From Pseudomonas sp. (GTDB lineage: Bacteria > Pseudomonadota > Gammaproteobacteria > Pseudomonadales > Pseudomonadaceae): a stretch of DNA of 42,965 nucleotides. Position 1 is the first letter of the stretch. Each line of letters starts with the position of its first letter. The notes below the pieces were generated by a model. That model was not told the origin of the DNA, did no database searches, and saw nothing but the letters and a program-made list of their open reading frames with translations. The translations under genes were made by a program, and so were the position numbers. Below are positions 16,044-29,905 of the stretch, in pieces. The stretch covers positions 1-42,965 of the forward strand of contig JAUVYN010000022.1 in NCBI GenBank assembly GCA_030603065.1, read 5' to 3'.

Positions 16044-16679
16044 ATGTATCTGCAGGAGTTCCTGGTGGTCGCGCTGGTTCATTTGCTGGCCGTAGCCAGT
16101 CCCGGTCCCGATCTGGCGGTAGTGCTGCGCAACAGCGTGGGGTTTGGTCGCCCGGCCGGTCTTGCCACGGCGGCCGGCATCGGAACCGGTATTCTGCTGC
16201 ACGTCGGATATTCGCTCCTCGGCATAGGTCTGATCGTCAGCCAGTCGCCGACGCTGTTCAACGTCCTCAAGGGCGCCGCGGCGCTGTATCTGATTTATCT
16301 GGGGATACAGGGGCTGCGATCGAAACCCCGCGGCCCGGCTGACCCAATCGACCCGCTGGTTGCACCGCGGGCTCGCAGGGCGTTCATGACAGGGCTGATT
16401 ACCAACGGGCTGAACCCCAAGGCGACACTGTTTTTTCTGGCGTTGTTCAGTGTGGTGATCGACCCGGGCACGCCCACCCTGGTGAAGGCAGGTTATGGTG
16501 CCTATCTCGCACTGGCCACGGCGGCGTGGTTCTGCCTGGTAGCGCTGTTCTTCACACGGCCGGCGATCAGGGCTGGCCTTACACGGTTCGGCCACTGGTT
16601 CGACCGGGCGATGGGCGTCATCCTGCTCGGGCTGGGAATGCAACTGGCGCTTTCCGAAGGGCTGCGCCAGTTGCCCTGA
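16044..16679 (+). CDS. LysE/RhtB-family amino-acid exporter
   Basis: A 211-residue inner-membrane protein with about six spans. The family signature is at the N terminus: LAVASPGPDLAVVLRNSVGFGR (split by PGPD), then LYLIYLGIQGLRS and the internal TGLITNGLNPKATLFFLALF motif typical of RhtB/LeuE-type exporters. It should export small neutral amino acids or homoserine lactone-type compounds, but the substrate is not known. GGAG seven bases before ATG 16044 decides the start; upstream in-frame ATG 16005 lacks one. Its stop is five bases from that of the convergent hemH. Confidence 0.88.
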   Translation: MYLQEFLVVALVHLLAVASPGPDLAVVLRNSVGFGRPAGLATAAGIGTGILLHVGYSLLGIGLIVSQSPTLFNVLKGAAALYLIYLGIQGLRSKPRGPADPIDPLVAPRARRAFMTGLITNGLNPKATLFFLALFSVVIDPGTPTLVKAGYGAYLALATAAWFCLVALFFTRPAIRAGLTRFGHWFDRAMGVILLGLGMQLALSEGLRQLP

Positions 16680-16684
16680 ACGGC

Positions 16685-17707
16685 TCAGGCTGATGCAGGC
16701 TCGCTGCGGCACCAGCCAGCCAGCGCGTCGATCCACTGCGGATGGTCATTCATGCAGGGAATCAGCACCAGCTCCTCGCCCCCTGCTTCGATGAACTGCT
16801 CCCGTGCCCGGTCACCAATTTCTTCCAGCGTCTCGATGCAGTCAGCGGTAAACGCCGGACACATCACCAGCAATCGCTTGACGCCCCGGGCGGCAAGCTC
16901 ATCGATGCGTTGCTCGGTGTAGGGCTCGATCCACTTGTCGCGGCCCAGACGCGACTGGAATGCCAGCGACCACTGGTCGTCGCCCAGTCCCATGCGGGCC
17001 GCAAAAGCTTTGCTGACCGACACGCATTGGGCGCGGTAACAGGTCGCGTGCGCCACCGAGGGGCGGTCGCAGCAATCCGGAAAGCTCAGACAATGGCTCT
17101 TGGTCGGGTCCGCCTTGCGCAGATGGCGTTCCGGCAAGCCGTGATAGCTCATCAGCAAATGATCGAAGGGCCGCTGCAGATGGGGTTCGGCACTGGCCAC
17201 CAGCGCATCCATGTAGGCCGGACGGTCATGGAAGGCCGGCACGACCGTCAGCCGGACCTTCAGCCTGTGTGCGGCTATCACCCGCTGCGCTTCACGAATA
17301 GAGGTGGTGGTGGTGCTGTCCGCATGCTGGGGATATTGCGGAATGAACAGTATTTCACGTAGTCCGGGGCGCTCGGCCAACGCCAGGATACCCCTCTCGA
17401 TCGAAGGTTCGCCGTAGCGCATCGCCAGTTCCACCGGCATGTCCAGACGCGCCTGAAGCGCCTGTTGAACACGGCGACTGATCACCACCAAAGGCGAGCC
17501 GTCCTCCCACCAGATACTGGCATAGGCTTCAGCCGACTTCTTCGGCCGCACGGCGAGGATGATCCCCACCAGCAGCCTGCGTAACGGCCATGGCAGATCG
17601 ACCACATAGGGATCCATCAGAAACTGGTTGAGGTAACGACGCACATCGGCCACCTCGGTACTGGCCGGAGAGCCGAGATTAACCAGTAACACTCCTCGTT
17701 CAGACAT
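16685..17707 (-). CDS. hemH: Ferrochelatase (protoporphyrin ferrochelatase)
   Basis: Inserts ferrous iron into protoporphyrin IX, the last step of heme synthesis in this lineage. The 340-residue protein has the catalytic His in SYHGLPERH (His189) and the metal/proton-channel Glu residues in CPAFTADCIETLEEIG (about 288-297), plus LVNLGSPAS at the N terminus. A Cys-rich insert (SHCLSFPDCCDRP ... ATCYRAQC) lies after the catalytic His. It starts only 17 bases after the stop of the TIGR01777 gene on the same strand, so the two are probably co-transcribed from the promoter region at 18744-18772. That promoter overlaps a LitR/PplR-type box, which would tie removal of a photosensitising porphyrin to light (inference). 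Confidence 0.95.
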   Translation of the reverse strand: MSERGVLLVNLGSPASTEVADVRRYLNQFLMDPYVVDLPWPLRRLLVGIILAVRPKKSAEAYASIWWEDGSPLVVISRRVQQALQARLDMPVELAMRYGEPSIERGILALAERPGLREILFIPQYPQHADSTTTTSIREAQRVIAAHRLKVRLTVVPAFHDRPAYMDALVASAEPHLQRPFDHLLMSYHGLPERHLRKADPTKSHCLSFPDCCDRPSVAHATCYRAQCVSVSKAFAARMGLGDDQWSLAFQSRLGRDKWIEPYTEQRIDELAARGVKRLLVMCPAFTADCIETLEEIGDRAREQFIEAGGEELVLIPCMNDHPQWIDALAGWCRSEPASA

Positions 17708-17724
17708 TCAGGACCACTCCACTC

Positions 17725-18624
17725 TCAATGTTCGCCAACGACGTCTTTCAGGGCCTGATCCAACTGCGAGAACTGGAACCGGTAGCCCACTTCCTGCAGC
17801 CGGGCCGGCCGCGCATTCTGCCCCATCAGCAGAAGTGTTGCCATCTCTCCCAGCCCAGCCTTGAGCACCAGCGCCGGTACCGGGAATATGGCAGGCCTGT
17901 GCAGCGTGGCAGCCAATGTACTGGTGAACTCGCGGTTGGTGACCGGATTCGGGGCGGTGGCGTTGAACACGCCCTTCAAGTCCGCATGTCGAAGCAGATG
18001 CAGGATTATGCCTACTTCATCATCCAGATGAACCCAAGACATGTATTGCTGACCCGAGCCGAGGCGCCCGCCCAGACCAAGGCGAAACGGCAGAAGCATG
18101 CGCTTCAGGAATCCCTCTCCTGGAGCCAGCACCAACCCCGTACGAACCAGGCAGACACGCACACCGTGCGCACTGGCCCGCCGCGCCGCCGCCTCCCAGG
18201 CATCGCAAAGCGTATGAGTGTAGGCCGGCCGCGCAGCGGAGTCCTCGGTGAGCGGAAGCTCACCCCCGTCGCCGTACCAGCCCACCGCCGAGCCGCTGAT
18301 CAGAGTGGCAGGCTTCTCACTGCGCTGATCGATCCAGGCGACCAGTCGCTCGGTCAGCGAAACGCGGCTGGCCCATAGTTCAGCCTTGCGCTTGGCGGTC
18401 CAGGGGCGATCTGCGATGGGCGCCCCCGCCAGATTCACCACCGCATCGACCTGCTCGTCGCCCAATTCCACGCGGTTGGCGATGCCCCGCGCTCCGTTGC
18501 CACAGAGGTTACCGACCTGCGCCGGCCTGCGGCTCAACACCGTGACCTGATCGCCTGAAGCCAGCAGCCGATGTGACAAATGCCGCCCTATGAGGCCGGT
18601 CCCTCCTGTGATCAATACATGCAT
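17725..18624 (-). CDS. TIGR01777-family epimerase/oxidoreductase (YfcH-like)
   Basis: A 299-residue extended short-chain dehydrogenase-like protein. It begins with the nucleotide-binding motif MHVLITGGTGLIG and contains VVNLAGAPIADRPW, SGSAVGWYGDGGE, RTGLVLAPGEG and the C-terminal DUF1731-like QEVGYRFQF, all typical of TIGR01777/YfcH. The reaction is unknown. Start ATG 18624 is chosen at the nucleotide fold with GAGG about five bases upstream; the frame is open back to 18801, but that part is not protein-like. It lies 17 bases before hemH and is divergent from the renalase-like gene across a putative light-response operator. Confidence 0.88.
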   Translation of the reverse strand: MHVLITGGTGLIGRHLSHRLLASGDQVTVLSRRPAQVGNLCGNGARGIANRVELGDEQVDAVVNLAGAPIADRPWTAKRKAELWASRVSLTERLVAWIDQRSEKPATLISGSAVGWYGDGGELPLTEDSAARPAYTHTLCDAWEAAARRASAHGVRVCLVRTGLVLAPGEGFLKRMLLPFRLGLGGRLGSGQQYMSWVHLDDEVGIILHLLRHADLKGVFNATAPNPVTNREFTSTLAATLHRPAIFPVPALVLKAGLGEMATLLLMGQNARPARLQEVGYRFQFSQLDQALKDVVGEH

Positions 18625-18743
18625 GGCGACCTCACGTTTACGGAAAGGAACTATCTTTAAGGGGACCATCATGCGTATGGCGTCCGGAAAAAAGCATATC
18701 AGTACTGGCCGCCGGTGACTTGCGGTCAGTTCACATATGGTGG

Positions 18744-18772
18744 ATGCTATACACGTAATATGATTTGTACAA
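18744..18772 (-). promoter_or_regulatory. Putative minus-strand promoter for TIGR01777-hemH
   Basis: Read on the minus strand: -35 TTGTAC (plus 18767-18772), a 17-base spacer, and -10 TAGCAT (plus 18744-18749). The LitR/PplR-type box at 18748-18771 fills this space, the arrangement expected for MerR-family control. The leader to the ATG at 18624 would be roughly 110 bases. Confidence 0.45.
18748..18771. promoter_or_regulatory. Putative LitR/PplR-type light-response operator 1
   Basis: TATACA (18748-18753), twelve bases, TGTACA (18766-18771). This is an exact match to the box T(G/A)TACA-N12-TGTA(C/T)A that I recall for the class II LitR regulators (PplR) of Pseudomonas putida. It lies between divergent genes for a TIGR01777 protein (with hemH) and a renalase-like flavoprotein. 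A -10-like TATGAT (18759-18764) facing the renalase gene also falls inside it. Confidence 0.6.
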
Positions 18773-18803
18773 GTTATGAAGAACTTTTCGGAATGAAGCA
18801 TTC

Positions 18804-19781
18804 ATGAATTCTTTGAACATCGCGGTAATCGGCGCAGGCATGGCCGGAATCAGTGCTGGTCGCGCCCTGCGCGAGGCCGGCCACCAGATAACCCTGTTCG
18901 ACAAGTCCAGAGGCAGCGGCGGGCGCATGAGCAGCCGACGAACCGATTCGGGCAGCTTCGACATGGGTGCCCAGTACTTTACAGCCCGGGAAGGAGCCTT
19001 TCGTCAGCATCTTCATCAGTGGCTTGAGCAGGGCTGGGTCGCTGAATGGGCACCGCGACTGTACATGTTCGACGAACGGGGGTTGACGGAGTCACCGGAC
19101 GACCAACCGCGCTACGTCGGCCTACCACGGATGACTGGCCTTTCCCGCGGGCTGCTCGGCGACCTTCCGCTGGTCAGCCAGACCCGCATTACTCAACTGC
19201 AGCATGACGAACCGGGACACTGGACCCTGCTCGACGACACCGGAGGCGCTCACGGCCCCTTCGACCGAGTGGTGGTAGCTGCGCCGGCCCCCCAGGCCGC
19301 AGCGCTGCTCGAGGTGGCTCCCTCACTGGCGCAGGCCGCAGCATCTGCCTCCATGGAGGCAGGCTGGACTCTCGCGCTTTCATTCAAGGATGCATTGCTC
19401 ACCCCGGTGGAAGCCTGCTTCGTACGCAGCGGTCCGATCGACTGGATCAGTCGCGACAGCAGCAAACCAGGTCGCTCGGGAGACGACAACTGGGTCGTTC
19501 AGTCAACACCCGAATGGGCGGCGCAGCATCTTGACGCCACGCCGGAAGAAGTCGCCCTGGAGCTCACCGGCGCGCTGGGCTACGTACTCGGCTTCGACAT
19601 CCCTGCGGCGCATTACCGCCACGCTCACCGCTGGCTATATGCCCGGCCGGCGACTATCAACAACTGGGGCGCACTGGCGGCGCCGGCTATGGGCCTATAC
19701 GTCTGCGGCGACTGGTGTCTCGGCGGTCGGCTGGAAAACGCCTGGCTCAGCGGCATGCAGGTCGCGCGCACGCTGACCTGA
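18804..19781 (+). CDS. Renalase-like FAD-dependent NAD(P)H-isomer oxidase
   Basis: A 325-residue soluble flavoprotein. The FAD dinucleotide fold (IAVIGAGMAGISAGRALREAG) starts at residue 5, followed by FDKSRGSGGRMSSRR and FDMGAQYFTARE, a block I recognise from bacterial renalase of Pseudomonas. The C-terminal FAD-contacting part is YVCGDWCLGGRLENAWLSG. Bacterial renalase oxidises 2- and 6-dihydro isomers of NAD(P)H back to NAD(P), a metabolite-repair role; an unrelated amine-oxidase activity is the alternative. The ATG at 18804 is preceded by weak GAAG/GGAA. The next gene begins one base after its stop. The upstream box at 18748 suggests light or photo-oxidative control. Confidence 0.85.
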   Translation: MNSLNIAVIGAGMAGISAGRALREAGHQITLFDKSRGSGGRMSSRRTDSGSFDMGAQYFTAREGAFRQHLHQWLEQGWVAEWAPRLYMFDERGLTESPDDQPRYVGLPRMTGLSRGLLGDLPLVSQTRITQLQHDEPGHWTLLDDTGGAHGPFDRVVVAAPAPQAAALLEVAPSLAQAAASASMEAGWTLALSFKDALLTPVEACFVRSGPIDWISRDSSKPGRSGDDNWVVQSTPEWAAQHLDATPEEVALELTGALGYVLGFDIPAAHYRHAHRWLYARPATINNWGALAAPAMGLYVCGDWCLGGRLENAWLSGMQVARTLT

Positions 19782-19782
19782 C

Positions 19783-19998
19783 ATGCGTCACCTTAATCCG
19801 CGCAAGCTCATGCATTCCAAATGGACCGCATGTCACCCTGCCAATCGTGAGCGCCACTTCATGGTGGTGAGTTGTATCGAAGACGACCTTGGCGACATCG
19901 TCGAAGTCGAGCTCGAGGCAGTGCTTACGAAACGCGTCCAGCGACTGCCTTGGCAGACTCTGCGAAATGAAGAAGCATGGTATCAAGGTTGGCAATGA
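19783..19998 (+). CDS. TIGR02450-family small Trp-rich protein
   Basis: A 71-residue soluble protein matching the small tryptophan-rich family TIGR02450: NPRKLMHSKWTACHPANRE (core of the family), then HFMVVSCIEDD and a C-terminal Trp pair in LPWQTL and AWYQGWQ. Function is unknown. It begins one base after the renalase-like gene and must be translated from the same mRNA. In gene neighbourhoods I recall the family near photolyases and photo-stress genes, which agrees with this location, but I cannot check that here. The 93 bases after it hold the promoter/operator of the rudS-phr operon. Confidence 0.8.
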   Translation: MRHLNPRKLMHSKWTACHPANRERHFMVVSCIEDDLGDIVEVELEAVLTKRVQRLPWQTLRNEEAWYQGWQ

Positions 19999-20024
19999 AT
20001 CCCATCGGAACGTATTCAAAAAAC

Positions 20025-20052
20025 TTGTACAAACCCACCAGAGGTGTAGACT
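20025..20052 (+). promoter_or_regulatory. Putative promoter of the rudS-phr operon
   Basis: -35 TTGTAC (20025-20030), 16-base spacer, -10 TAGACT (20047-20052). The -35 is identical to that proposed for the TIGR01777-hemH promoter. TGTACA (20026-20031) and TGTAGA (20045-20050) inside it form an imperfect copy of the light-response box, spaced 13 instead of 12. Transcription would begin near 20059, inside the next operator. Confidence 0.45.
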
Positions 20053-20055
20053 AAT

Positions 20056-20083
20056 CCTATACAAGACAATCACCTTGTATAGG
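20056..20083. promoter_or_regulatory. Putative LitR/PplR-type light-response operator 2 (perfect dyad)
   Basis: CCTATACAAG (20056-20065) and CTTGTATAGG (20074-20083) are perfect 10-base inverted arms around an 8-base spacer. Within it TATACA-N12-TGTATA (20058-20081) is an exact match to the recalled PplR box. It overlaps the expected transcription start and the first bases of the AGGAG ribosome site (20081-20085) of rudS, so bound protein would block initiation; the dyad in RNA could also mask the ribosome site. Confidence 0.65.
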
Positions 20084-20091
20084 AGTCTACC

Positions 20092-21081
20092 GTGACCGAA
20101 TTACAACCCCAGGCCACCCCTGCGTCACCACCCGAACGCATACCGGTCGGGATCAGTCACTGCCTGCTTGGCGCTGAAGTCCGCTTCAACGGTGGACATA
20201 AGCACTCTTCCCTGTGTACCGGGACGCTGGGCACCCTGTTCGCCTATGTTCCATTCTGTCCGGAAGTCGCCATCGGCATGGGTACACCGCGCCAGGCAAT
20301 CCGCCTGGTTGGCGACCCGACTTCCCCTCGGGTGGTCGGAACGCGCGATGCCAGTCTGGATGTGACCGAGCCGTTGCAGAGAGAAGGTTCGACCGCCCTC
20401 GCCCGGCACCCTGAGCTGCGCGGGTTCATTCTGATGCAGAAGTCGCCCAGTTGTGGCATGGAGCGCGTCAAGGTCTACGATGACGACGGCAACCGTCCTC
20501 CGGAGGCCGCCGGCAGCGGAGCCTTCGCAGCTGCGCTGATGCGCAGCGACCCTCTCCTTCCGGTAGAAGAGGAAGGTCGCCTCAACGATCCGGTGCTGCG
20601 CGAGAACTTCGTCACTCGAGTCATCATTTACGCCCAATGGCGGGCCCTGCTCGAGGCGGGACTCAGCGCCGGCGCACTTGTCGAATTCCACACCCGCCAC
20701 AAGTATCTGCTGATGGCTCATCAGCGCGACCTGTATCAGGCCATGGGCCGACTGGTAGCTGGGTTTGGCCAGGCGGACCACAAGGAAGTTGCGGCCAGTT
20801 ATGGCGCACTGCTGATGCAGTGCCTGCGCACACGGGCCAACCGTCGCAGCCACAGCAATGTGCTCCAGCACATGGCCGGACATTTCAAGCGCGCCCTGGG
20901 AAGGGCGGAAAAACAGGAACTGCAGGAGCTGATAGTCCAGTATCGCAACGGGCTGGTTCCACTGGTTGTTCCCATGACCCTGCTGAAGCACCACCTGCTT
21001 CGACATCCGGACCCCTTCTTACTGCGGCAGGCCTATCTGCAGCCGCATCCGGCCGAGCTGAGCCTGCGCAATGCGATATAG
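20092..21081 (+). CDS. rudS: RudS-type tRNA 4-thiouridine desulfidase (TudS/DUF523 + DUF1722 fusion)
   Basis: A 329-residue fusion. Residues about 18-165 are a TudS (DUF523) domain with the three Cys expected to hold a [4Fe-4S] cluster: Cys24 (SHCLLGAEVRFNGG), Cys56 (FCPEVAIGMGTPR) and Cys121 (QKSPSCG). Residues about 192-310 are DUF1722/YbgA (HTRHKYLLMAHQ at 200-211). This architecture is RudS, reported to remove sulfur from 4-thiouridine in tRNA, with DUF1722 binding tRNA; s4U is the near-UV chromophore behind UVA growth delay. Start is GTG 20092, six bases after AGGAG. It heads the operon with the MerR regulator nine bases downstream and phr next; E. coli similarly has ybgA beside phr. Light control is inferred from operator 2. 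Confidence 0.88.
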   Translation: MTELQPQATPASPPERIPVGISHCLLGAEVRFNGGHKHSSLCTGTLGTLFAYVPFCPEVAIGMGTPRQAIRLVGDPTSPRVVGTRDASLDVTEPLQREGSTALARHPELRGFILMQKSPSCGMERVKVYDDDGNRPPEAAGSGAFAAALMRSDPLLPVEEEGRLNDPVLRENFVTRVIIYAQWRALLEAGLSAGALVEFHTRHKYLLMAHQRDLYQAMGRLVAGFGQADHKEVAASYGALLMQCLRTRANRRSHSNVLQHMAGHFKRALGRAEKQELQELIVQYRNGLVPLVVPMTLLKHHLLRHPDPFLLRQAYLQPHPAELSLRNAI

Positions 21082-21090
21082 GGGACAGCA

Positions 21091-21993
21091 ATGACACCGC
21101 GCGTCGATGGGCTACTGCCGATCCGCGAAGTGGCTCGACTCACCGGAGTGAACGCCGTCACCCTGCGCGCATGGGAACGGCGCTACGGGCTGATCGAACC
21201 CCATCGGACCGAAAAGGGCCATCGCCTGTACTCGCCGGACAACCTCGACCGGGTCCGCGCCATCCTGACCTGGCTGTCCAGGGGGGTGAATGTGGGTCAG
21301 GTCAAGGGACTGCTGGAGCAGGAATGCGCGCAGACCGCAAGCTCTGGCGAGGCACCCTGGGGAATGTTGCGGAACGAGCTGCTTGAGGGCCTGCGCCGCT
21401 TTAACATGAGCCCGTTCGAACAGCAGCTCCAGCGATATCGCGAGCATTACTGCAGCATGCTGATCTGCGAACAGGTCTTCGAGCCGCTGCTGGCACATGT
21501 GCAGCAGCGTTGGCAAGGGCAGTTCGGCAGCCAACTCGAAGAAGTCTTCTTCCATACCTGGCTGCGCGATCAGATAGCCGCCTGGATGCGCTCGTGCAGC
21601 AGTACTGAAACCAGACGCGTCGTGCTGGCCAACCTCTCGACAGAGCACTATGCGCCAGCGATGTGGCTGCTGGCTGCGCTGCTGGCCGACCAGGGGGTCG
21701 CCGTCAGCCTGCTCGAATGGGAGTTTCCGGCGAGCGAGCTGACCCTGCTGCACGACCAGAGCTCACTCTGCGCGGTGGTGTTCTACAGCAGCCAGGCCCT
21801 CCCCTCCCACCAGCTGAAGCGACACCTGCCAAAGCTCAACCGACACCTGCCCGGCGGCCTGTTCATGGCCGGCCCCGCGGCGGTCATTCATCGGGAACAC
21901 TGGATGGCACTGGGGATCGGCAATCTCGGAACACTACCGTCTGCTGCATGCCGCCAGCTGATACAGACCTTAAAGGGCGCGGAAAATGACTGA
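21091..21993 (+). CDS. MerR-family regulator with degenerate cobalamin-binding domain (class II LitR/PplR-like)
   Basis: Predicted DNA-binding regulator, 300 residues. The N-terminal MerR winged helix (about 9-75) reads LPIREVARLTGVNAVTLRAWERR then YGLIEPHRTEKGHRLYS. A helical bundle follows (about 90-170) and a cobalamin-binding-like Rossmann domain (about 176-295). In the latter the usual E/D-x-H-x-x-G loop has become T-E-H-Y-A-P around His186, and no W-x9-E-H capping motif is visible. Photo-sensing by adenosylcobalamin as in CarH is therefore unlikely. This fits class II LitR (PplR) proteins, which in P. putida depend on separate LOV photoreceptors; none is in this window. It probably represses its own operon through the boxes at 20056 and 18748. 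Its stop overlaps the phr start by eight bases. Confidence 0.85.
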   Translation: MTPRVDGLLPIREVARLTGVNAVTLRAWERRYGLIEPHRTEKGHRLYSPDNLDRVRAILTWLSRGVNVGQVKGLLEQECAQTASSGEAPWGMLRNELLEGLRRFNMSPFEQQLQRYREHYCSMLICEQVFEPLLAHVQQRWQGQFGSQLEEVFFHTWLRDQIAAWMRSCSSTETRRVVLANLSTEHYAPAMWLLAALLADQGVAVSLLEWEFPASELTLLHDQSSLCAVVFYSSQALPSHQLKRHLPKLNRHLPGGLFMAGPAAVIHREHWMALGIGNLGTLPSAACRQLIQTLKGAEND

Positions 21994-23419
21994 AGCAACC
22001 CAACTGGTCTGGCTGCGCGCCGACCTCAGACTGCACGACAACACCGCGTTATGGAATGCATCGCGACGCGGCCCGGTAGTGGTCGTCTATTGCCTCACAC
22101 CACAAACCTGGCGCGAACATGACGACGCGCCCATCAAACTGGATTTCTGGTTGCGGAATCTGAAGGCTCTGGCCGAGCAACTCGCGCAAGTCAACATTCC
22201 GCTGCGAATACTTGAGGTGCCCGCCTGGCGCGACTGCCCCCAGGCCCTGACGGCTCTGGCAGGCGAAACGGGTAGCACAGGCCTCTGGTTCAATGACGAA
22301 TATGGCATTCATGAACAACGGCGCGACGCCGCAGTTAGCGCAGCATGTGAAGCTGCGGGCCTGGAATGCCACAGATTCGTCGACCAGACGCTATTTCGGC
22401 CGGGTAGCCTACTGACCCAGGCAGGCACGATGTTCAAGGTATACAGCCAGTTTCGCAGGGCAGCCTACCGCGAACTGCGTGCCAGCCTTCCTGCATGCTG
22501 CCCGCCACCAGTTGCCCAGCCGCGGCTCGCCCTTGCTTCGGACCCGGTACCGGACCTTGTGCCAGGATTAGTTGCCTGCGACGAGTCTCAGCGCTGTCTC
22601 TGGCCGGCTGGAGAAGAGCCCGCCAACCGGCGCTTGCAGGCTTTTTGCGAGTCCAGCATAGCCGACTATGATAACGATCGCGATCTGCCGGCGGTGGATG
22701 GTACGAGCCGGCTGTCCGCCTACCTAACCGCTGGTGTGCTTTCCCCCCGCCAGTGTCTGCATGCGGCTCTGGCTGTCAATCAGGGCGAATTCGACGGGGG
22801 CAATCCCGGAATTGTCAGCTGGATCAATGAACTTCTCTGGCGCGAATTCTACAAGCACATTCTGGTGTGCTATCCGCAGGTGTCCCGCGGCCGCGCCTTT
22901 CAACCGCATACCGAGTCGCTACGCTGGCGCCAAGACCCGGCCGGCCTGAAAGCCTGGCAGGAAGGCCAGACCGGCATACCAATCATCGATGCCGGAATGC
23001 GTCAGCTGAAGGCGACCGGCTGGATGCACAACCGCCTGCGCATGCTCACCGCGATGTTTCTCACCAAAAATCTTCTGATCGACTGGCGCGAGGGCGAACG
23101 CTGGTTCATGCAGAACCTGGTCGATGGCGACCTGGCAGCCAACAACGGCGGCTGGCAATGGAGCGCTTCCACCGGCACCGATGCAGCGCCCTACTTTCGC
23201 ATATTCAATCCGGTCACCCAGTCGGAGAAGTTCGATCCCGAGGGTGCCTACATTCGCAAGTGGGTCCCGGAGCTATCCGGCGTAAAGGGCAAGCAAATCC
23301 ATCAGCCCGTGTCACCCGACCTCTTCGGAGGCAGTGGTTACCCCGCCCCCATCGTCGACCTCAGACAATCCCGCCAGCGAGCGCTGGACGCGTTCAAATC
23401 GTTGGGAGATCGGCCATGA
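21986..23419 (+). CDS. phr: Deoxyribodipyrimidine photolyase (class I CPD photolyase)
   Basis: Light-driven repair of cyclobutane pyrimidine dimers. The 477-residue enzyme has the N-terminal antenna-cofactor domain (LVWLRADLRLHDNTALW) and the C-terminal FAD/DNA-binding domain with ELLWREFYKHIL, GWMHNRLRMLTAMFLTKNLL, the WREGERWFMQNLVDGDLAAN block and SASTGTDAAPYFRIFNP. The Trp residues of the electron-transfer chain appear to be kept. Length is typical for the E. coli type. It is coupled by overlap to the regulator upstream (eight bases) and the NTF2-like gene downstream (ATGA), so expression should follow the operon promoter. In P. putida phrB is a light-induced LitR target, which agrees with the operator found here. 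Confidence 0.97.
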   Translation: MTEATQLVWLRADLRLHDNTALWNASRRGPVVVVYCLTPQTWREHDDAPIKLDFWLRNLKALAEQLAQVNIPLRILEVPAWRDCPQALTALAGETGSTGLWFNDEYGIHEQRRDAAVSAACEAAGLECHRFVDQTLFRPGSLLTQAGTMFKVYSQFRRAAYRELRASLPACCPPPVAQPRLALASDPVPDLVPGLVACDESQRCLWPAGEEPANRRLQAFCESSIADYDNDRDLPAVDGTSRLSAYLTAGVLSPRQCLHAALAVNQGEFDGGNPGIVSWINELLWREFYKHILVCYPQVSRGRAFQPHTESLRWRQDPAGLKAWQEGQTGIPIIDAGMRQLKATGWMHNRLRMLTAMFLTKNLLIDWREGERWFMQNLVDGDLAANNGGWQWSASTGTDAAPYFRIFNPVTQSEKFDPEGAYIRKWVPELSGVKGKQIHQPVSPDLFGGSGYPAPIVDLRQSRQRALDAFKSLGDRP

Positions 23420-23844
23420 CGTGCACCGCTGCGGAACGCTTCGCGGAGGGCTTCGCTGCCATTGGCAGGGACAACCTTTCGAAACTGACGGATCTCTATC
23501 ACGACGACCTGGTGTTCACCGACCCCCTGCACGAGATACACGGGCTAGCTGCGATGCACGCCTACTGCGCCAACCTGTACGCGAATGTCAGCGAGACACG
23601 TTTCGACTTTCAGCACTGTCAGCAGCTAAACGAAACCGACGCAGTGCTGCGCTGGACCATGACCTTCAGACACCCGCGCCTCGGGGGCGGAAAGCCGATC
23701 AGCCTGGATGGCTGCAGCTTCCTGACCTTTCGCGGCGACAAGGTGTGCCGCCACCGGGACTATTTCGATGCAGGCGCCCTGCTCTACGAGCACTTGCCGG
23801 TACTGGGCGCCATCATCGGCTGGCTTAAAGGGAGACTGGCATGA
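23416..23844 (+). CDS. NTF2-like / SnoaL-like protein
   Basis: A 142-residue soluble protein with the cone-shaped NTF2/SnoaL fold pattern: an N-terminal helix (RFAEGFAAIGRDNLSKLTDLY), then HDDLVFTDPLHEIHGLAAM, a curved-sheet region with WTMTFRHP, and FRGDKVCRHRDYFDAGALLYE near the end. Such proteins bind small hydrophobic ligands or act as isomerases or hydrolases; the substrate is unknown. It recurs in this gene set (photolyase, dehydrogenase, amine oxidase, DUF1365, methyltransferase), which suggests a step or a chaperone role in fatty-acyl modification. It overlaps phr and the downstream dehydrogenase by four bases each (ATGA). Confidence 0.8.
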   Translation: MTCTAAERFAEGFAAIGRDNLSKLTDLYHDDLVFTDPLHEIHGLAAMHAYCANLYANVSETRFDFQHCQQLNETDAVLRWTMTFRHPRLGGGKPISLDGCSFLTFRGDKVCRHRDYFDAGALLYEHLPVLGAIIGWLKGRLA

Positions 23845-24608
23845 CAGCTCGACGCGTCTGGCTGACCGGTGCATCCAGCGGAATTGGCCACGCCCTGGCC
23901 TGCGAACTGGCAAAGATGGGCTATCTGCTGGCCGTGACGGCGCGCCGGCGCGAACCCCTCGATGAGCTGGCCGCCCGGTTTCCGGGGCAGATCCTGGTGC
24001 TTCCCGCGGACCTGACGGATCGAGCCGCGGTGATCGCTACCGGGCAGGCATTGCGCGACAGCTGGGGCGCACTGGATCTGGTGATCCTCAACGCCGGTAC
24101 CTGTGAATACGTCGAGGTAGATCGCTTCGACTCTGCGCTTTTCGCTCGGGTGATGAACACCAACGTGCAAGGCACCGTGCACTGTGTCGAAGCCGCCCTG
24201 CCTCTGCTGCGCCTGGGTAATAAGCCTCGACTGGTCGGAATCGGCAGCAGCGTGACCTTTTGCCCACTTCCCAGAGCGGAAGCCTACGGGGCATCGAAGG
24301 CCGCGATGCGCTACCTGTTCCAGTCACTCGAGCTCGATCTGGCCCAGTGGAAGATCGACGTCAGTCTGGTCAGCCCCGGCTTCGTCGACACGCCTCTTAC
24401 CGCGCAGAACGACTTCCCCATGCCCATGCGCGTCGACAGCGAAGCCGCCGCCCGCAGGATCATCCGGGGAATCGCCCAGGGCCAGCGCGAGATTAGATTT
24501 CCTGCGTTTTTCACCGGCTTCCTGCGCCTGTTGGGCAGCCTTCCAAACGCTCTACGGTTCGCGCTGACCAGACATATGGTGCGACCCGCTAACAAGGAAG
24601 CAAACTGA
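23841..24608 (+). CDS. Short-chain dehydrogenase/reductase
   Basis: A 255-residue classical SDR. The cofactor motif is VWLTGASSGIGHALACELAKMG (TGxxxGxG), the structural NAG is in VILNAGTCEYVEVD, and the active-site Ser, Tyr and Lys are in GIGSSVTFCPLPRAEAYGASK. A hydrophobic C-terminal segment (FFTGFLRLLGSLPNALRFAL) may associate with the membrane. It probably oxidises or reduces a lipid-derived group in the fatty-acid remodelling carried out by its operon partners; an SDR is also part of the singlet-oxygen-induced RSP1087-1091 cluster that I recall from Rhodobacter sphaeroides. Overlaps: ATGA with the NTF2-like gene and TGATG with the amine oxidase. Confidence 0.9.
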   Translation: MTARRVWLTGASSGIGHALACELAKMGYLLAVTARRREPLDELAARFPGQILVLPADLTDRAAVIATGQALRDSWGALDLVILNAGTCEYVEVDRFDSALFARVMNTNVQGTVHCVEAALPLLRLGNKPRLVGIGSSVTFCPLPRAEAYGASKAAMRYLFQSLELDLAQWKIDVSLVSPGFVDTPLTAQNDFPMPMRVDSEAAARRIIRGIAQGQREIRFPAFFTGFLRLLGSLPNALRFALTRHMVRPANKEAN

Positions 24609-25855
24609 TGCGAATCGCCATCATCGGCGCGGGCATATCCGGCCTGGTCTGTGGCTACAAGCTGGCAGAGAAGCATGACCTGACGCTGTTCGAAGCCGCC
24701 GACTGGGTTGGCGGGCACACCCATACGGTGGACGTTGAGGTGCAGGGGCATACCTACGCCATCGACACCGGCTTCATTGTGTTCAACGACTGGACCTACC
24801 CGAACTTCATCCAGTTGCTCAACGAGCTTGGCGTCGGATCACAGCCCACCGAGATGAGTTTTTCCGTGCATGACCCGGCTAGCGGCATGGAGTACAACGG
24901 CAACAACCTGAACAGCCTGTTCGCCCAGCGCCGCAACCTCCTGCCGCCCGGGTTCCTGCGGATGGTACGCGACATCCTGCGCTTCAATCGCAACGCATTG
25001 CACGATCTGGCCGAGCAACGGGTGCGCCCGGAAACCACCCTGGGTGAGTATCTTGCCGCGCAGGGCTACGGTCAGCGCTTCATCGACCATTACATCATCC
25101 CCATGGGCTCCGCGATCTGGTCCATGCCGCTGGCCGAGATGCTGGCCTTTCCGCTGCAATTCTTCCTGCAGTTCTTCCGCAATCACGGCCTGCTCTCCGT
25201 CACTGACAGGCCGCAATGGCACGTGATCCAGGGCGGTTCGCGTAGTTATGTGGGTCCGTTGAGCGCTCCCTTCGCCGAGCGCATCCGCACCAGTTGCCCG
25301 GTGCAGCAGGTCGAGCGCGACGCGGAAGGCGTAACGGTACACAGCGCCGCTGGCAGCGAGCGCTTCGATCGAGTCATATTCGCCTGCCACAGCGATCAGG
25401 CGCTGGCCATGCTGAGCCAGCCCAGCCCCCAGGAAGAGGCCATTCTTGGCGCCATCGGTTACGCAGACAACGATGTAGTGCTGCATACCGATACGCGCCT
25501 GCTGCCCGACCGCCGCCTGGCCTGGGCCAGCTGGAACTATCGCCTCGGCGGCGACAGCCGGCAGCCCGCCGCCGTGACCTACAACATGAACATCCTGCAG
25601 GGCATCAGCGCACCGCAAACCTTCTGCGTGAGCCTGAACCAGACCGCGGCGATCGACCCCGCGCGGATTCTTGCGCGCTACACCTACGCCCATCCCCAGT
25701 TCAGTCTTGCCGCTCAGAAGGCACAACAGCGCTGGGCCGAACTCCTGGGTCCCCGCCACAGTTATTTCTGCGGCGCCTACTGGGCCAATGGCTTCCATGA
25801 GGATGGTGTCGTCAGTGCTCTGCGAGTGGTGAAAGCGATCGAGGACGAGCCATGA
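24608..25855 (+). CDS. FAD-dependent amine oxidase-like protein (UfaD-like, fatty-acid modification)
   Basis: A 415-residue flavoprotein of the amine oxidase/phytoene desaturase superfamily. The FAD fold starts at residue 1 (MRIAIIGAGISGLVCGYKL), followed by GGHTHTVDVEVQGHTYAIDTGF (split by VEV), a hallmark of the group next to DUF1365 and cyclopropane-synthase genes; the C-terminal FAD contact is CGAYWANGFHEDGVVSALR. In R. sphaeroides a protein of this family (RSP1091, later UfaD as I recall) acts with the methyltransferase UfaM in making methylated unsaturated and furan fatty acids that quench singlet oxygen. A similar desaturase role is inferred here. It overlaps the DUF1365 gene by four bases. 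Confidence 0.85.
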   Translation: MRIAIIGAGISGLVCGYKLAEKHDLTLFEAADWVGGHTHTVDVEVQGHTYAIDTGFIVFNDWTYPNFIQLLNELGVGSQPTEMSFSVHDPASGMEYNGNNLNSLFAQRRNLLPPGFLRMVRDILRFNRNALHDLAEQRVRPETTLGEYLAAQGYGQRFIDHYIIPMGSAIWSMPLAEMLAFPLQFFLQFFRNHGLLSVTDRPQWHVIQGGSRSYVGPLSAPFAERIRTSCPVQQVERDAEGVTVHSAAGSERFDRVIFACHSDQALAMLSQPSPQEEAILGAIGYADNDVVLHTDTRLLPDRRLAWASWNYRLGGDSRQPAAVTYNMNILQGISAPQTFCVSLNQTAAIDPARILARYTYAHPQFSLAAQKAQQRWAELLGPRHSYFCGAYWANGFHEDGVVSALRVVKAIEDEP

Positions 25856-26694
25856 TGCAGTCAAGCGCGCTTTACCGAGGCTGGATTCGGCACCGGCGTT
25901 ATGCGCCGAAAACCCACAATTTTACCTACCGCCTGAGCCTGTTGTGGCTGAATCTGGACGAGCAGGCGCAGGTGTTCAAGCTGAGCAGCCTCTGGTCCGG
26001 GCGCTGGTGGTCACCGATCCGCTTTCGGGCTGGCGATTATCTTCGCCATCACCGCCGTGATGACGAAGACCTCAAGGCCGCCGCCCAGCGTCTGGTCCAT
26101 GAGCAGCTGGGGCTGCAACTCACCGGGCCCGTTTGCCTGCTAACCCAGGTTCGCAGCTTCGGCCTGGTATTCAACCCGGCCTCGTTCTTTTACTGCTATG
26201 ACGAGCACAGGCGCCTGCGGGCAATCATCACGGAAGTCAGCAATACCCCATGGCTGGAGCGCTACTGCTACGTGATGAAGACCGACCCGGAGCAGCGCAC
26301 GCAACGCTTCGAAATCGCCAAATCCTTCGATGTGTCCCCCTTCCTGCCCTCTGGGCTGGATTACCGCATGCGCTTCTCCCGACCGGACAGAACGCTGCTG
26401 ATTCATATGGAGGACTGGCAGGCGCAGGAAAAGCTCTTCGATGCCACGCTCAATCTGGCGCGCGAGCCGCTGAGCAAGACGCTGCTGCGCCGTGAAGCCT
26501 TCAGCTTTCCGTTCATGGTGCTGAAAACCGTCACCGCCATCTACTGGCAGGCGCTCCGCCTGGCGCTCAAGCGCATTCCAATCTTCGATCACCAGGCTCC
26601 CGTGCAAATCACCGCGGCGACCACCGCAATCAAGGTCAAGGACTCCCCGCATGAAAGACATTATGCAAGACAAGACACTGGCCTGCTGCGCTGA
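25852..26694 (+). CDS. DUF1365 protein of the fatty-acid modification cluster
   Basis: A 280-residue protein with DUF1365 features: ALYRGWIRHRRYAPKTHNF at the N terminus, FGLVFNPASFFYCYD in the middle, ITEVSNTPWLERYCY and FDVSPFLP after it. There is one likely membrane-associated helix near the C terminus (VLKTVTAIYWQALRLAL). The biochemical role is unknown, but the family almost always sits between the amine-oxidase-like gene and a cyclopropane-synthase-like methyltransferase, as here, and is therefore assumed to help in acyl-chain modification. Two adjacent ATGs (25852, 25855) are possible starts. Its last 44 bases overlap the methyltransferase gene in another frame. Confidence 0.85.
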   Translation: MMQSSALYRGWIRHRRYAPKTHNFTYRLSLLWLNLDEQAQVFKLSSLWSGRWWSPIRFRAGDYLRHHRRDDEDLKAAAQRLVHEQLGLQLTGPVCLLTQVRSFGLVFNPASFFYCYDEHRRLRAIITEVSNTPWLERYCYVMKTDPEQRTQRFEIAKSFDVSPFLPSGLDYRMRFSRPDRTLLIHMEDWQAQEKLFDATLNLAREPLSKTLLRREAFSFPFMVLKTVTAIYWQALRLALKRIPIFDHQAPVQITAATTAIKVKDSPHERHYARQDTGLLR

Positions 26695-28003
26695 CGACCA
26701 GTCGTTGCTGGAGGCGCGTGCCAGCCAGCTGCTGGGCGATACTCGGGCCCGGGCCCAGCGAGTTGCCGCACGGCGGTCCTGGGTACAGAAATTGTCCCGC
26801 CGCCTGGTACTGGCCCAGCTTAGCGCACTGCGCTTTGGCACGCTGACGGTCCACGAGGAGGACCAGGTACTGCAATTCGGGCAGGATGCGAGCGATGGCC
26901 TACACGCCGAAATCTATCTGCACAGTCCGGCGGCCTATCCCATGGTTGCCGGCAACGGCAGCGTCGGTGCCGGAGAGGCCTACCTGCACGGCTTCTGGTC
27001 TACGCCGGACCTGAGTGCGGTAACGCGGATTTTCGTGCGCAATATGAACGTGCTCGACGCCATGGAGCGGGGCTTGGCCCGGCTCGGGCGCCCGGCGCTC
27101 AAATGGCTTCACTGGCTCAATCGCAATACGCTGGAGGGTTCGCGGCGCAACATCCAGGCTCACTACGACCTGGGCAACGAGTTGTTCAAGAGTTTTCTCG
27201 ACCCGACCATGATGTATTCGGCGGCGATCTTCCCGCCCGGGTGTGACAACCTGGAACAGGCGCAGCTCAACAAGCTCGAACGCATCTGCCGCAAGCTGGA
27301 GCTCAAGCCGGACGATCACCTGCTCGAGATCGGCACCGGCTGGGGCAGCATGGCGATTTACGCAGCGCAGCACTACGGTTGCCGAGTCACCACTACCACC
27401 CTGTCGGACGAACAGTTCACCTACGCTACCGCAAAGGTTGCCGAACTGGGGCTGCAGGATCGCATCACCGTACTGCTCAAGGACTACCGCGAGCTCAAAG
27501 GTGAATACGACAAGCTGGTTTCGATCGAAATGGTGGAAGCCGTTGGCCACAACTATTTTCGAACCTACTTTCAGCACTGTGCACAACGACTAAAACCCAA
27601 GGGGTTGATGCTGCTGCAGGCCATTACGATCAGAGATCAACGTTACGAGCAGGCACGCAGAAGCGTGGACTTCATCCAGCGCTTCGTCTTTCCCGGGGGA
27701 TCGCTGCCTTCGGTCAGCCTGATTGGTGAGCTGACCCGCAGGCACACCGATCTGGCCATGCTGCACATGGAAGACATAGGGCTGCACTACGCGCAGACCC
27801 TGCGTCACTGGCACCGCAACCTGAAAAACGCGCGCAGCCACCTGCAGCAACTGGGGTATGATGACTACTTTTTCCGGCTGTGGGAGTTCTATCTGTGCTA
27901 TTGCGAAGGCGGCTTCGACGAGCGCTCGATCGGTACAGCTCAGATATTGTTCAGCAAACCCGATGCGCGGCCGGAACTGCACCTGCACAACCTGGGAGCC
28001 TGA
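26651..28003 (+). CDS. Cyclopropane-fatty-acyl-phospholipid synthase family methyltransferase (UfaM-like)
   Basis: SAM-dependent methyltransferase acting on unsaturated acyl chains in phospholipids. The 450-residue protein has the N-terminal lipid-binding part and then the catalytic core: NIQAHYDLGNELFKSFLDP, MMYSAAIFPPG, SAM motif LLEIGTGWGSMAIYAA, VSIEMVEAVGH, and FIQRFVFPGGSLPS. The last is the family signature. The operon context (photolyase, SDR, amine oxidase, DUF1365) resembles the UfaM group, whose Pseudomonas member is light-induced, rather than the housekeeping Cfa. AAGGA eight bases before ATG 26651 decides the start and creates a 44-base overlap with DUF1365. Whether the end product is cyclopropane, methyl-branched or furan acid is not readable from sequence. 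Confidence 0.9.
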   Translation: MKDIMQDKTLACCADDQSLLEARASQLLGDTRARAQRVAARRSWVQKLSRRLVLAQLSALRFGTLTVHEEDQVLQFGQDASDGLHAEIYLHSPAAYPMVAGNGSVGAGEAYLHGFWSTPDLSAVTRIFVRNMNVLDAMERGLARLGRPALKWLHWLNRNTLEGSRRNIQAHYDLGNELFKSFLDPTMMYSAAIFPPGCDNLEQAQLNKLERICRKLELKPDDHLLEIGTGWGSMAIYAAQHYGCRVTTTTLSDEQFTYATAKVAELGLQDRITVLLKDYRELKGEYDKLVSIEMVEAVGHNYFRTYFQHCAQRLKPKGLMLLQAITIRDQRYEQARRSVDFIQRFVFPGGSLPSVSLIGELTRRHTDLAMLHMEDIGLHYAQTLRHWHRNLKNARSHLQQLGYDDYFFRLWEFYLCYCEGGFDERSIGTAQILFSKPDARPELHLHNLGA

Positions 28004-28004
28004 A

Positions 28005-28538
28005 ATGCCGGTCAAACTGATTGCCAACGCCCTTCTTTTTCAGCTTGGCTGGGTAGCGGCGGTCCTGGGCGGCAACTCATTCTGGCTGGTCATTCCCTTG
28101 CTCGCCTTGTTGGTGCATTTCACCTGGATCAGCAGCTGGGCCGAGGAAGGCAAGCTGGTGATGAGCGTATTTCTGGCCGGCTCGGCACTGGACTCGTTTC
28201 TGATGCACCTGGGCCTTTTCGCCATCCCGGGGGACTCCGACCTGATTCCCTTCTGGCTGGCAGTGCTGTGGGCACTGCTGGCAACCACGTTGAACCACTG
28301 CCTCACCTGGAGCAGGCCATGGTGGATCGCCGCAGGGGTGGGCGCCGTAGGCGGCTCCTTCGCCTACATCGCCGGCGCACAACTCACTGAAGTGGAGCTG
28401 CCGCTTGGAACCGGCCCCAGCCTGGCAATTCTGGCCGCCATCTGGGCCCTGGTATTGCCGGTGCTACACGGTTTCGCGCATATGTATCGCGAACAGTACC
28501 GCTTGCGACTCGCTGCCGAACGGCAGCGGCAGCGTTAG
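28005..28538 (+). CDS. DUF2878 inner-membrane protein
   Basis: A 177-residue protein with four to six hydrophobic spans (ANALLFQLGWVAAVLGG, the WLVIPLLALLVHFTW segment, SVFLAGSALDSFLMHLG and two more), matching DUF2878. A basic tail (YRLRLAAERQRQR) closes it. The function is unknown; the family travels with the amine oxidase, DUF1365 and methyltransferase genes, so a membrane role in lipid remodelling is plausible. The ATG follows the methyltransferase stop by one base. It is the last gene of the nine-gene operon; its stop overlaps the convergent pagL stop by four bases, and I see no intrinsic terminator. Confidence 0.85.
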   Translation: MPVKLIANALLFQLGWVAAVLGGNSFWLVIPLLALLVHFTWISSWAEEGKLVMSVFLAGSALDSFLMHLGLFAIPGDSDLIPFWLAVLWALLATTLNHCLTWSRPWWIAAGVGAVGGSFAYIAGAQLTEVELPLGTGPSLAILAAIWALVLPVLHGFAHMYREQYRLRLAAERQRQR

Positions 28539-29062
28539 AAACTGAAGCGGTAATGCAGCGCGGCTGTCTCGATTCCGTTGTTCGGCTTGCGAATACCCGC
28601 ATTCGAGTAGTGATAGATTCTCAGGCCAATCTCGGTTCCGGTAGGAAACCTCACCCCCGCGCCGAAGCGATCTTCGAACAGTAGCCGGGAGCCGAGATCA
28701 CGCTCTTCTGAACGAAAGTTGCTGCGGGTAAAGTAGGCCGCACCGATACCCGCTTCTATATAGGGAACCATATTGCTGCCCGGTCCGAACTCGAGAACCA
28801 GCACCGGAGAGACCGAAAGGGTATTCGCATCCAGCCCAGCCCAGCGCGTCAGGCCCATGTCCCAGTATCCGCCGAGCCGCATGCTGCCGCGCTGGTTCTG
28901 CCAGATGGCCTGGCCGAAATCGAATTGCCCTGCCACACGGTAGGTTTCGGTAGATTCACTGCTCAGGCCGAATTCGAGAGTCAACCCGTCTACTGCATGG
29001 GCAAGGGGGGCAACACTCGAAACCGACAACATACATCCAAGTAAGAGACCGCGTTTGTTCAT
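28535..29062 (-). CDS. pagL: Lipid A 3-O-deacylase
   Basis: Outer-membrane beta-barrel enzyme that removes the 3-linked acyl chain of lipid A, dampening endotoxin signalling and adjusting the outer leaflet. The 175-residue precursor has a signal peptide (residues 1-23, ending AHA). The catalytic residues are all present with correct spacing: His151 and Ser153 in IYHYSNAGI and Glu165 (GIE), twelve residues after the Ser. It ends in an aromatic barrel signature, YRFSF. Start ATG 29062 is chosen over upstream 29089 because AAGGA lies nine bases before it and the signal peptide starts there. The position between the phr cluster and murI is as in P. aeruginosa (PA4661). Confidence 0.92.
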   Translation of the reverse strand: MNKRGLLLGCMLSVSSVAPLAHAVDGLTLEFGLSSESTETYRVAGQFDFGQAIWQNQRGSMRLGGYWDMGLTRWAGLDANTLSVSPVLVLEFGPGSNMVPYIEAGIGAAYFTRSNFRSEERDLGSRLLFEDRFGAGVRFPTGTEIGLRIYHYSNAGIRKPNNGIETAALHYRFSF

Positions 29063-29113
29063 TGGTTTTGATCCTTGCGAAATAGGCATCCGGACGGAAA
29101 CTCACCGTCGCGA

Positions 29114-29905
29114 TTACAAAGACAACTGGGTAACAACCCCGTTCCCGCTCCAGAGCCTCGGCAACACAGCGTTCAATGAAACGGGATCACCCGTTGTCCA
29201 GAACCGCGCTGGGCAAGCCGGCCCGCACGCAAGCAGATCACCTTCACGCAGACGTTGGCGTAGCTGTCTGGCCACCGCAGCCCCAGTGTCGACCAGCGTC
29301 ACGTTCTCCGGCACCAGACGTCGCAACAGAGGCCGGAGGAAGGGATAATGGGTGCAGCCCAGGATCAGAGTGTCGCAACCCTCGGCAAGCAAGGGCCGGG
29401 TATAACTGCGCAGCAAGGCTTCGAGCTCTGGCCCGTCGAGCTCTCCCCGTTCGACGCACTCCACCAGGCCCGGGCACGGCTGAGTGACAACCCGAACGCT
29501 ACCAGCGAAGCGATCCAGCAGCGCGGCAAACTTGGCGCTTTGCAGCGTGCCGGTTGTGGCCAGCACACCCACCACCCCCGAGCGGGTGGCCAGTGCTGCC
29601 GGCTTGACCGCCGGCTCCATGCCGATCACCGGTACTTCAAAGAGGCTGCGCAGATCGTTAACGGCGGCCGCTGTAGCAGTATTGCAGGCGACCACCAGTG
29701 CCTTGGCGCCCTGACCGAGCAGAAAATCGGCGAGTATGCGACTACGCTGGCGAATGTAGTCGGTGGACTTTTCACCATAGGGAACGTGCCCACTGTCGGC
29801 AACGTACAAGAGCGACTCGGCTGGCAGAAGGTCGCGTATTTCAGCCAGCACCGATAGCCCGCCGACTCCCGAATCGAATACCCCGACCGGCGCCTCAGAA
29901 CCCAT
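29114..29905 (-). CDS. murI: Glutamate racemase
   Basis: Makes D-glutamate for peptidoglycan. The 263-residue protein has the acid in [12 protein letters not shown] (Asp11) and the two catalytic Cys: Cys74 in [11 protein letters not shown] and Cys184 in LGCTHYPFL. The start at ATG 29905 is chosen from the family N terminus and the purine-rich GAGCGGGAAA just upstream; the frame is open further back, but only over moeB. It overlaps the end of moeB by eleven bases and is the last gene of the hemA-prfA-prmC-moeB-murI unit. Confidence 0.95.

Follow-up and report, generated by a model that had tools for sequence, protein, structure and literature searches.

The window analysed here is a stretch of 42,965 nucleotides (contig JAUVYN010000022.1, assembly GCA_030603065.1) from a draft genome of 3.59 Mb in 171 contigs, 95.4% complete, whose genus is Halopseudomonas. 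Between positions 20092 and 28538 it carries nine + strand genes that overlap or lie at most 9 bases apart in the open reading frame (ORF) list, the largest intergenic gap being the 9 bases from rudS to litR1. Their order is rudS, litR1, phrB, SnoaL-like, short-chain dehydrogenase (SDR), flavin adenine dinucleotide (FAD) oxidase, DUF1365, ufaM and DUF2878. An earlier sequence-only reading had proposed nine joined genes of these families, which the ORFs and Pfam matches bear out, and we regard the locus as very probably the class II LitR/short-LOV blue-light operon in its Halopseudomonas form. The genes are as follows:

20092-21081, + strand: rudS, homologue of the tRNA 4-thiouridine (s4U) desulfidase, with a GTG start (PF04463, TudS, and PF08349, DUF1722; PDB 6z92)
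21091-21993, + strand: litR1, MerR-type LitR/CarH-family repressor (PF13411, E 2e-18; CarH profile; PDB 5c8d)
21986-23419, + strand: phrB, cyclobutane pyrimidine dimer photolyase (NF007955 above cut-off; PDB 1dnp, E 7e-133)
23416-23844, + strand: SnoaL/NTF2-like protein (PF12680)
23841-24608, + strand: SDR (PF00106)
24608-25855, + strand: FAD amine-oxidase-like protein (PF01593)
25852-26694, + strand: DUF1365 protein (PF07103, E 7e-73)
26651 (or 26663)-28003, + strand: ufaM-type CMAS methyltransferase (PF02353, E 2e-85)
28005-28538, + strand: DUF2878 protein, final gene of the operon (PF11086, E 3e-38)

RudS is a TudS-DUF1722 fusion, with PF04463 at residues 19-161 and PF08349 at residues 204-320. 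Cys24, Cys56 and Cys121 are invariant in an alignment of seven sequences (A1), and their spacings of 32 and 65 equal those of Cys17, Cys49 and Cys114 in RudS_KT, as given in the parts of PMC11417400 used here. The suggestion that the first gene serves s4U erasure fits both that RudS and the TudS structure 6z92. LitR1 displays traits of a class II LitR, namely an N-terminal MerR helix-turn-helix domain, a CarH-like middle and no true B12-binding domain. The same genome encodes a second LitR (LitR2, C83:15077) with 33% identity to LitR1 and, on contig C148, a short LOV protein of 153 amino acids consisting of a single PAS_9 LOV core, with the adduct Cys53 in YQDCRFLQ and no effector domain; among solved structures it comes closest to LOV proteins of the Sensory box type (7r5n first, E 3e-68). 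The sensor is probably this separate short LOV, encoded elsewhere in the genome, and not the MerR protein itself; the second LitR is present too.

Comparison of 33 genomes of the genus, each at least 90% complete and including that of the window (G000), revealed LitR in 26 and short LOV in the identical 26, both being absent from the other seven (G003, G004, G007, G015, G022, G024 and G026). With random labels such agreement has a chance of 2.3e-7, ignoring kinship. CRFLQ is kept in all 26 LOV proteins. Full-length RudS occurs in 22 of the 26 genomes with LitR and LOV versus none of the seven without, suggesting that s4U erasure is retained as a light response.

Two exact operators of the pattern T(G/A)TACA-N12-TGTA(C/T)A lie upstream of rudS, where we also place a candidate promoter:

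18748-18771: LitR-type operator TATACA-N12-TGTACA, between the TIGR01777-hemH and renalase units
20025-20030, + strand: proposed -35 TTGTAC, matching 3 of 6 bases of the sigma-70 consensus and carrying the TGTACA half-site 20026-20031
20047-20052, + strand: proposed -10 TAGACT, 16 bases from the -35 and overlapping the half-site-like TGTAGA 20045-20050 (N13)
20058-20081: LitR-type operator TATACA-N12-TGTATA, just before the GGAG and GTG start of rudS

Both operators fit the consensus, as the sequence-only reading had it, but they are not the identical copies it described, and the one it put at 20056 begins at 20058, within a perfect 11-base inverted repeat (20055-20084). Allowing up to two mismatches, the window contains 4 sites versus 0.79 expected from shuffles. 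The genome-wide scan that the earlier reading had proposed gave 4 exact operators against 0 for the reversed pattern, which together with shuffles served as control. With up to one mismatch the genome holds 14 sites (4 exact) versus 5 reversed, and about 7 of the 10 one-mismatch sites fall within likely coding frames, so a lone one-mismatch site is weak. The rudS promoter would lie at 20025-20052, judged by its likeness to P6650 of Pseudomonas mendocina; TTRTACA occurs upstream of rudS in all 22 genus loci in which rudS was counted, and the layout TTRTAC-N16-TANNNT in 11 of them, where the -35 and -10 half-sites stand N13 apart and are followed by a dyad. A simple scan of 16500-29200 gave, on the - strand only, three terminator-like sites where shuffles predict 8.4, and a single promoter-like site, within phrB at 22645, where they predict 2.6.

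Across the 33 genomes, 50 exact operators were found versus 5 for the reversed pattern. Assigned by hand from gene neighbourhoods, 18 of them belong to TIGR01777/renalase, 11 to rudS and 3 to litR1 in the rudS-less genomes G006, G013 and G014 (gene order checked), the other 18 lying elsewhere. Exact operators are present in 22 of the 26 genomes with LitR and in none of the seven without. Half-sites were counted in the 189 bases upstream of each gene and compared with shuffles. At least two were found upstream of rudS in 22/22 genus loci (24/1100 shuffles), and upstream of TIGR01777 and of renalase in 18/18 loci each (8/900 and 12/900 shuffles), and in none of 22 upstream of the operon-internal phrB. 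A wider set comprised 80 named loci, which hold 90 sites at up to one mismatch versus 2 reversed; nine of these loci lie on contigs of genus genomes already counted, leaving 71 from other genomes, in which at least two half-sites precede rudS in 42/71, TIGR01777 in 14/29, renalase in 6/17 and phrB in 1/58.

The operator at 18748 stands between two divergent units, TIGR01777-hemH on the - strand and renalase-DUF2389 on the + strand, an arrangement the earlier reading had described correctly:

16685-17707, - strand: hemH, ferrochelatase (PF00762, E 5e-98; TIGR00109), 17 bases behind the TIGR01777 gene
17725-18624, - strand: oxidoreductase of the TIGR01777 (YfcH) family that opens the hemH unit (352.9 bits, cut-off 207)
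18804-19781, + strand: renalase homologue, an FAD protein assigned to NAD(P)H-isomer repair by homology (PDB 4zcc over residues 4-324, E 9e-109; 3kkj)
19783-19998, + strand: DUF2389 Trp-rich small protein (PF09493, E 8e-20), 1 base behind renalase

The match of the 18804 protein to the renalase structures 4zcc and 3kkj (E about 1e-108) supports the earlier guess of NAD(P)H-isomer repair as its probable role. A longer TIGR01777 ORF, reaching 18801, would cover the operator, and we therefore took the ATG at 18622-18624 as the probable start. TIGR01777 and hemH stand 17 bases apart in the window and also lie near each other in the 18 genus loci that have the cluster; hemH should follow if the 18748 site controls TIGR01777. 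Going by the conserved operators, both the hemH unit and the renalase unit may be under light control. In Escherichia coli, protoporphyrin IX builds up in mutants of hemH, and these react to blue light, according to the part of PMC12627116 consulted, so induction of hemH by light would make sense.

The nine genes match the pmlR1 operon PME6650-PME6610 of P. mendocina NBRC 14162, likewise of nine genes and induced by blue light (Maruyama et al. 2022, PMC9758184, of which parts underlie the comparison throughout), so the operon itself is already known. There, phrB is induced about 27-33-fold and ufaM 25-33-fold; at the sigma-70-type promoter P6650, the -35 is overlapped by site 1, with site 2 placed between the start site and the ATG; footprints of LitR2 cover both sites, and in vitro it represses transcription, which is restored when the lit short LOV binds LitR2 (PMC9758184). 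That operon, light-induced and with two copies of the motif, agrees with the photo-stress regulon of the sequence-only reading, but for hemH and renalase we infer light control from the operators. The same reading had called it unusual to find such genes in one operon with rudS, which does not hold: the authors call the region highly conserved (PMC9758184), and the full nine-gene order occurs in 8 of the 22 genus loci (the window, L081, L085, L086, L088, L092, L094 and L099) and in several named relatives, among them Terasakiispira (L309) and Aeromonas cavernicola (L331), these two having no site even with one mismatch allowed.

Reduced forms of the locus were also observed. L080, L083 and L084 show no matches to snoaL, SDR, FAD, DUF1365 or ufaM in the operon and retain DUF2878, which may accordingly act on its own. 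A gene with DUF1722 only adjoins phrB in five genomes (G003, G004, G005, G007 and G022; L101-L105), and the three such genes scanned with Pfam (from G005, G003 and G022) gave no TudS match. Four of these genomes are without LitR and LOV, G005 being the exception in that it has both and lacks the TudS domain. This form resembles E. coli ybgA-phr, where DUF1722 adjoins phr without a desulfidase domain. A stand-alone TudS gene was sought in the window genome, and a second TudS gene was detected there (C111:33591-34022, L355), in a frame of 195 residues that is too short for a RudS-type fusion.

Outside the locus, an exact operator in the window genome (G000:C42:380-403, L040) lies 183 bases before a gene for a GGDEF diguanylate cyclase, the enzyme class that makes cyclic di-GMP (c-di-GMP). 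Orthologues of the gene occur in 29 of the 33 genomes; at up to one mismatch, a site at -183 to -196 precedes it in 5 of the 23 with LitR and in none of the 6 without, two of the latter having 2-mismatch sites near the same position. Three TGTACA copies cluster at G000:C42:380-403. A 4HB chemoreceptor occurs in at least 11 of the 33 genomes, all 11 with LitR, and is preceded by an exact operator in 4 of the 11 (L195, L198, L203 and L204) and by a site at up to one mismatch in 7, one of these outlying (-242). It was not found in the window genome among the best 43 of 51 candidates, which does not prove its absence. Family-wide, the search took the best 7 candidates per genome, and in other genera 21 of 38 further genomes with a chemoreceptor match were examined regardless of their LitR content. 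An exact operator precedes 4 of 9 chemoreceptors in genus g14 (L334-L337), with one more site at 1 mismatch far upstream, and sites at up to one mismatch were seen in 0/7 of genus g5 and 0/5 of g15.

Exact operators also precede a protoglobin-GGDEF-EAL gene in two genomes. An HD-GYP gene adjoins the LOV gene in the window genome (C148; L039:391-1632), and in 5 of the 14 relatives fetched it has LitR2 on one side and LOV on the other; as LitR2 and LOV are on separate contigs in the window genome, their adjacency there would be a matter of likeness to these relatives. A one-mismatch site precedes HD-GYP in the window genome, G009 and G030, an exact one precedes LitR2-HD-GYP in G032, and none was found before HD-GYP in G031 and G018. 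In G017 (L100:2223-4483), exact operators mark the start of a LOV-adjoining PAS-chemoreceptor gene as well as the interval from an EAL gene to rudS, a layout that G021 and G027 appear, by homology, to share. A further exact operator of the window genome (G000:C133:9809-9832, L041) stands at a contig end beside an mnhE homologue, with no recognisable target gene; that mnhE homologue adjoins a chemoreceptor in three relatives. The glutamine-synthetase sites of G013 and G018 are palindromic at their core and may be those of a different regulator, and two sites in G011 have BrkB-like and unknown neighbours that recur nowhere in the loci fetched; none of these four was taken as a LitR target.

From these operators we are inclined to think that the LOV-LitR switch also drives behaviour, both in Halopseudomonas and in one or more genera close to it. 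Blue light would then alter transcription of the 4HB chemoreceptor, the LOV-adjoining PAS-chemoreceptor and several c-di-GMP enzymes (GGDEF, protoglobin-GGDEF-EAL, HD-GYP and EAL) and raise ferrochelatase to clear photosensitising protoporphyrin, different lineages having attached different motility or c-di-GMP genes to one operator.

Several observations weigh against reading the locus as a LitR-controlled light operon. The simple promoter scan of 16500-29200 lists none before rudS, and site 1, the more upstream of the rudS operators, has a degenerate sequence in the window. Between rudS and phrB, litR1 is absent or only a short match in 9 of the 22 genus loci; the arrangement therefore does not depend on LitR1. 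No N12 site at up to one mismatch precedes rudS in nine of the 22 (L081, L082, L085, L086, L087, L091, L093, L096 and L098), three of which (L081, L085 and L086) retain litR1; the half-sites in these nine stand partly at N13 or N14, which are putative binding spacings. G001, G005, G008 and G012 carry LitR and LOV and no exact operator anywhere, and hemH or ferrochelatase is not mentioned in the main text on P. mendocina (PMC9758184). Loss of the operator together with litR1 was considered as a natural experiment; it is not clean and was left unused as evidence, since L081, L085 and L086 have litR1 without a strict site, L089, L090 and L095 have a site without litR1, and half-sites are present in 22/22.

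Among other explanations, LitR1 might itself sense light through adenosyl-B12 in the manner of class I LitR/CarH, and it does resemble CarH over most of its length (PDB 5c8d; profile NF052513 at residues 7-239, whose 74.9 bits lie below the cut-off of 400). Its B12-binding match, however, is not significant (E 0.07, 13.4 bits versus a cut-off of 32.1), and B12-binding_2 reaches 16.6 bits, below the cut-off of 23, which is exceeded in the relatives L127 (28.6 bits) and L131 (23.8 bits) and not in L134; the two LitR2 proteins scanned gave no B12-binding_2 match. A B12-sensing LitR1 was rejected on this domain evidence, and with a short LOV gene accompanying LitR in 26/26 genomes we judge it very improbable. 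Even less credit is due to control of the operon by another photo-oxidative regulator, such as an extracytoplasmic function sigma factor with ChrR, the dyads serving an unrelated regulator. The singlet-oxygen regulon of Rhodobacter includes similar lipid genes and a photolyase, and the proposed rudS promoter is a poor sigma-70 match. Yet the dyad is the published LitR motif, its exact sites follow LitR across the genomes (22/26 versus 0/7), and the relative P. mendocina uses a sigma-70-type promoter (PMC9758184).

A narrower version, in which the rudS operon alone is light-controlled, the 18748 site is idle or serves renalase only, and hemH has its own promoter, seems to us doubtful, though less improbable than the other two. 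A distance of 123 bases separates the site from the start of TIGR01777, no literature match listed, as far as its text was available, names hemH or TIGR01777 among the targets of LitR, and outside the genus support for a TIGR01777 site is weaker, at 14 of 29 named loci. Against this stand the two half-sites before TIGR01777 in every one of the 18 genus loci and the closeness of TIGR01777 and hemH in the same 18. Moreover, several Stutzerimonas loci without a renalase match near rudS keep a site beside TIGR01777 (e.g. L264, L266 and L288), and in two Zooshikella loci a site lies between TIGR01777 and phrB (L303 and L324).

We therefore prefer the LitR/short-LOV operon with operators serving the divergent units as well. 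By analogy with P. mendocina, the locus would work as follows. In the dark, LitR1, LitR2 (encoded on another contig) or both would occupy the TGTACA dyads over the rudS promoter and leader (20026-20081), and LitR would also sit at 18748 between TIGR01777-hemH and renalase, RNA polymerase being blocked. Blue light would form a flavin mononucleotide adduct at Cys53 of the short LOV, and the lit LOV would bind LitR and remove it from the DNA. The derepressed operon would then supply the tRNA s4U eraser, by which tRNA loses a near-UV target, together with photolyase, the UfaM fatty-acid-modifying set and more LitR1, while the divergent units would supply renalase, the TIGR01777 protein and ferrochelatase, the last converting photosensitising protoporphyrin to heme.

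The wider regulon, with ferrochelatase included by co-transcription, looks new. New as well, as judged from the genomes, are the conservation of both promoters' half-sites in the genus, the co-occurrence of LitR and LOV, and the candidate operators before chemoreceptor and c-di-GMP genes. The literature matches listed, seen in part, include no report of class II LitR control of a chemoreceptor, c-di-GMP or ferrochelatase gene, which does not establish absence from print. The operon shows the LOV-LitR switch, often with the tRNA s4U eraser as first gene, to be a lasting unit in marine pseudomonads, and the operators that recur in front of chemoreceptor, c-di-GMP and ferrochelatase units provide a concrete list of possible light-regulated genes. 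If true, repair of light damage would be tied, in bacteria that do not photosynthesise, to the decision whether to swim or to settle. For comparison, the P. putida regulon listed by Sumi and colleagues in 2020 reportedly comprises 19 genes.

In the text used for P. mendocina, pmlR1, phrB, SDR, FAD oxidoreductase, ufaM and unnamed genes follow the same locus-tag order as in the window. The operator consensus at the first promoter is also the same, with one site between start site and start codon, and a second LitR and a short LOV are encoded elsewhere in the genome. Unlike in P. mendocina, site 1 of the window is a half-site with N13 spacing and no full N12 site, and our analysis includes a TIGR01777-hemH/renalase operator that the P. 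mendocina text consulted does not treat. The PplR/PpSB-LOV regulon of P. putida KT2440, as presented in parts of PMC9758184 and PMC8508746, shares class II LitR, the motif, phrB and ufaM; that strain has three LitRs and two short LOVs, whereas two LitRs and one short LOV were found in the window genome. Finally, the authors of PMC11417400 state that light-responsive operons often include rudS genes, phrB and LitR being present in one such operon, and the RudS of the window, whose activity is predicted, is like the RudS described in the portion of PMC11417400 used here in its TudS-DUF1722 fusion, equal three-Cys spacing and light-operon context.

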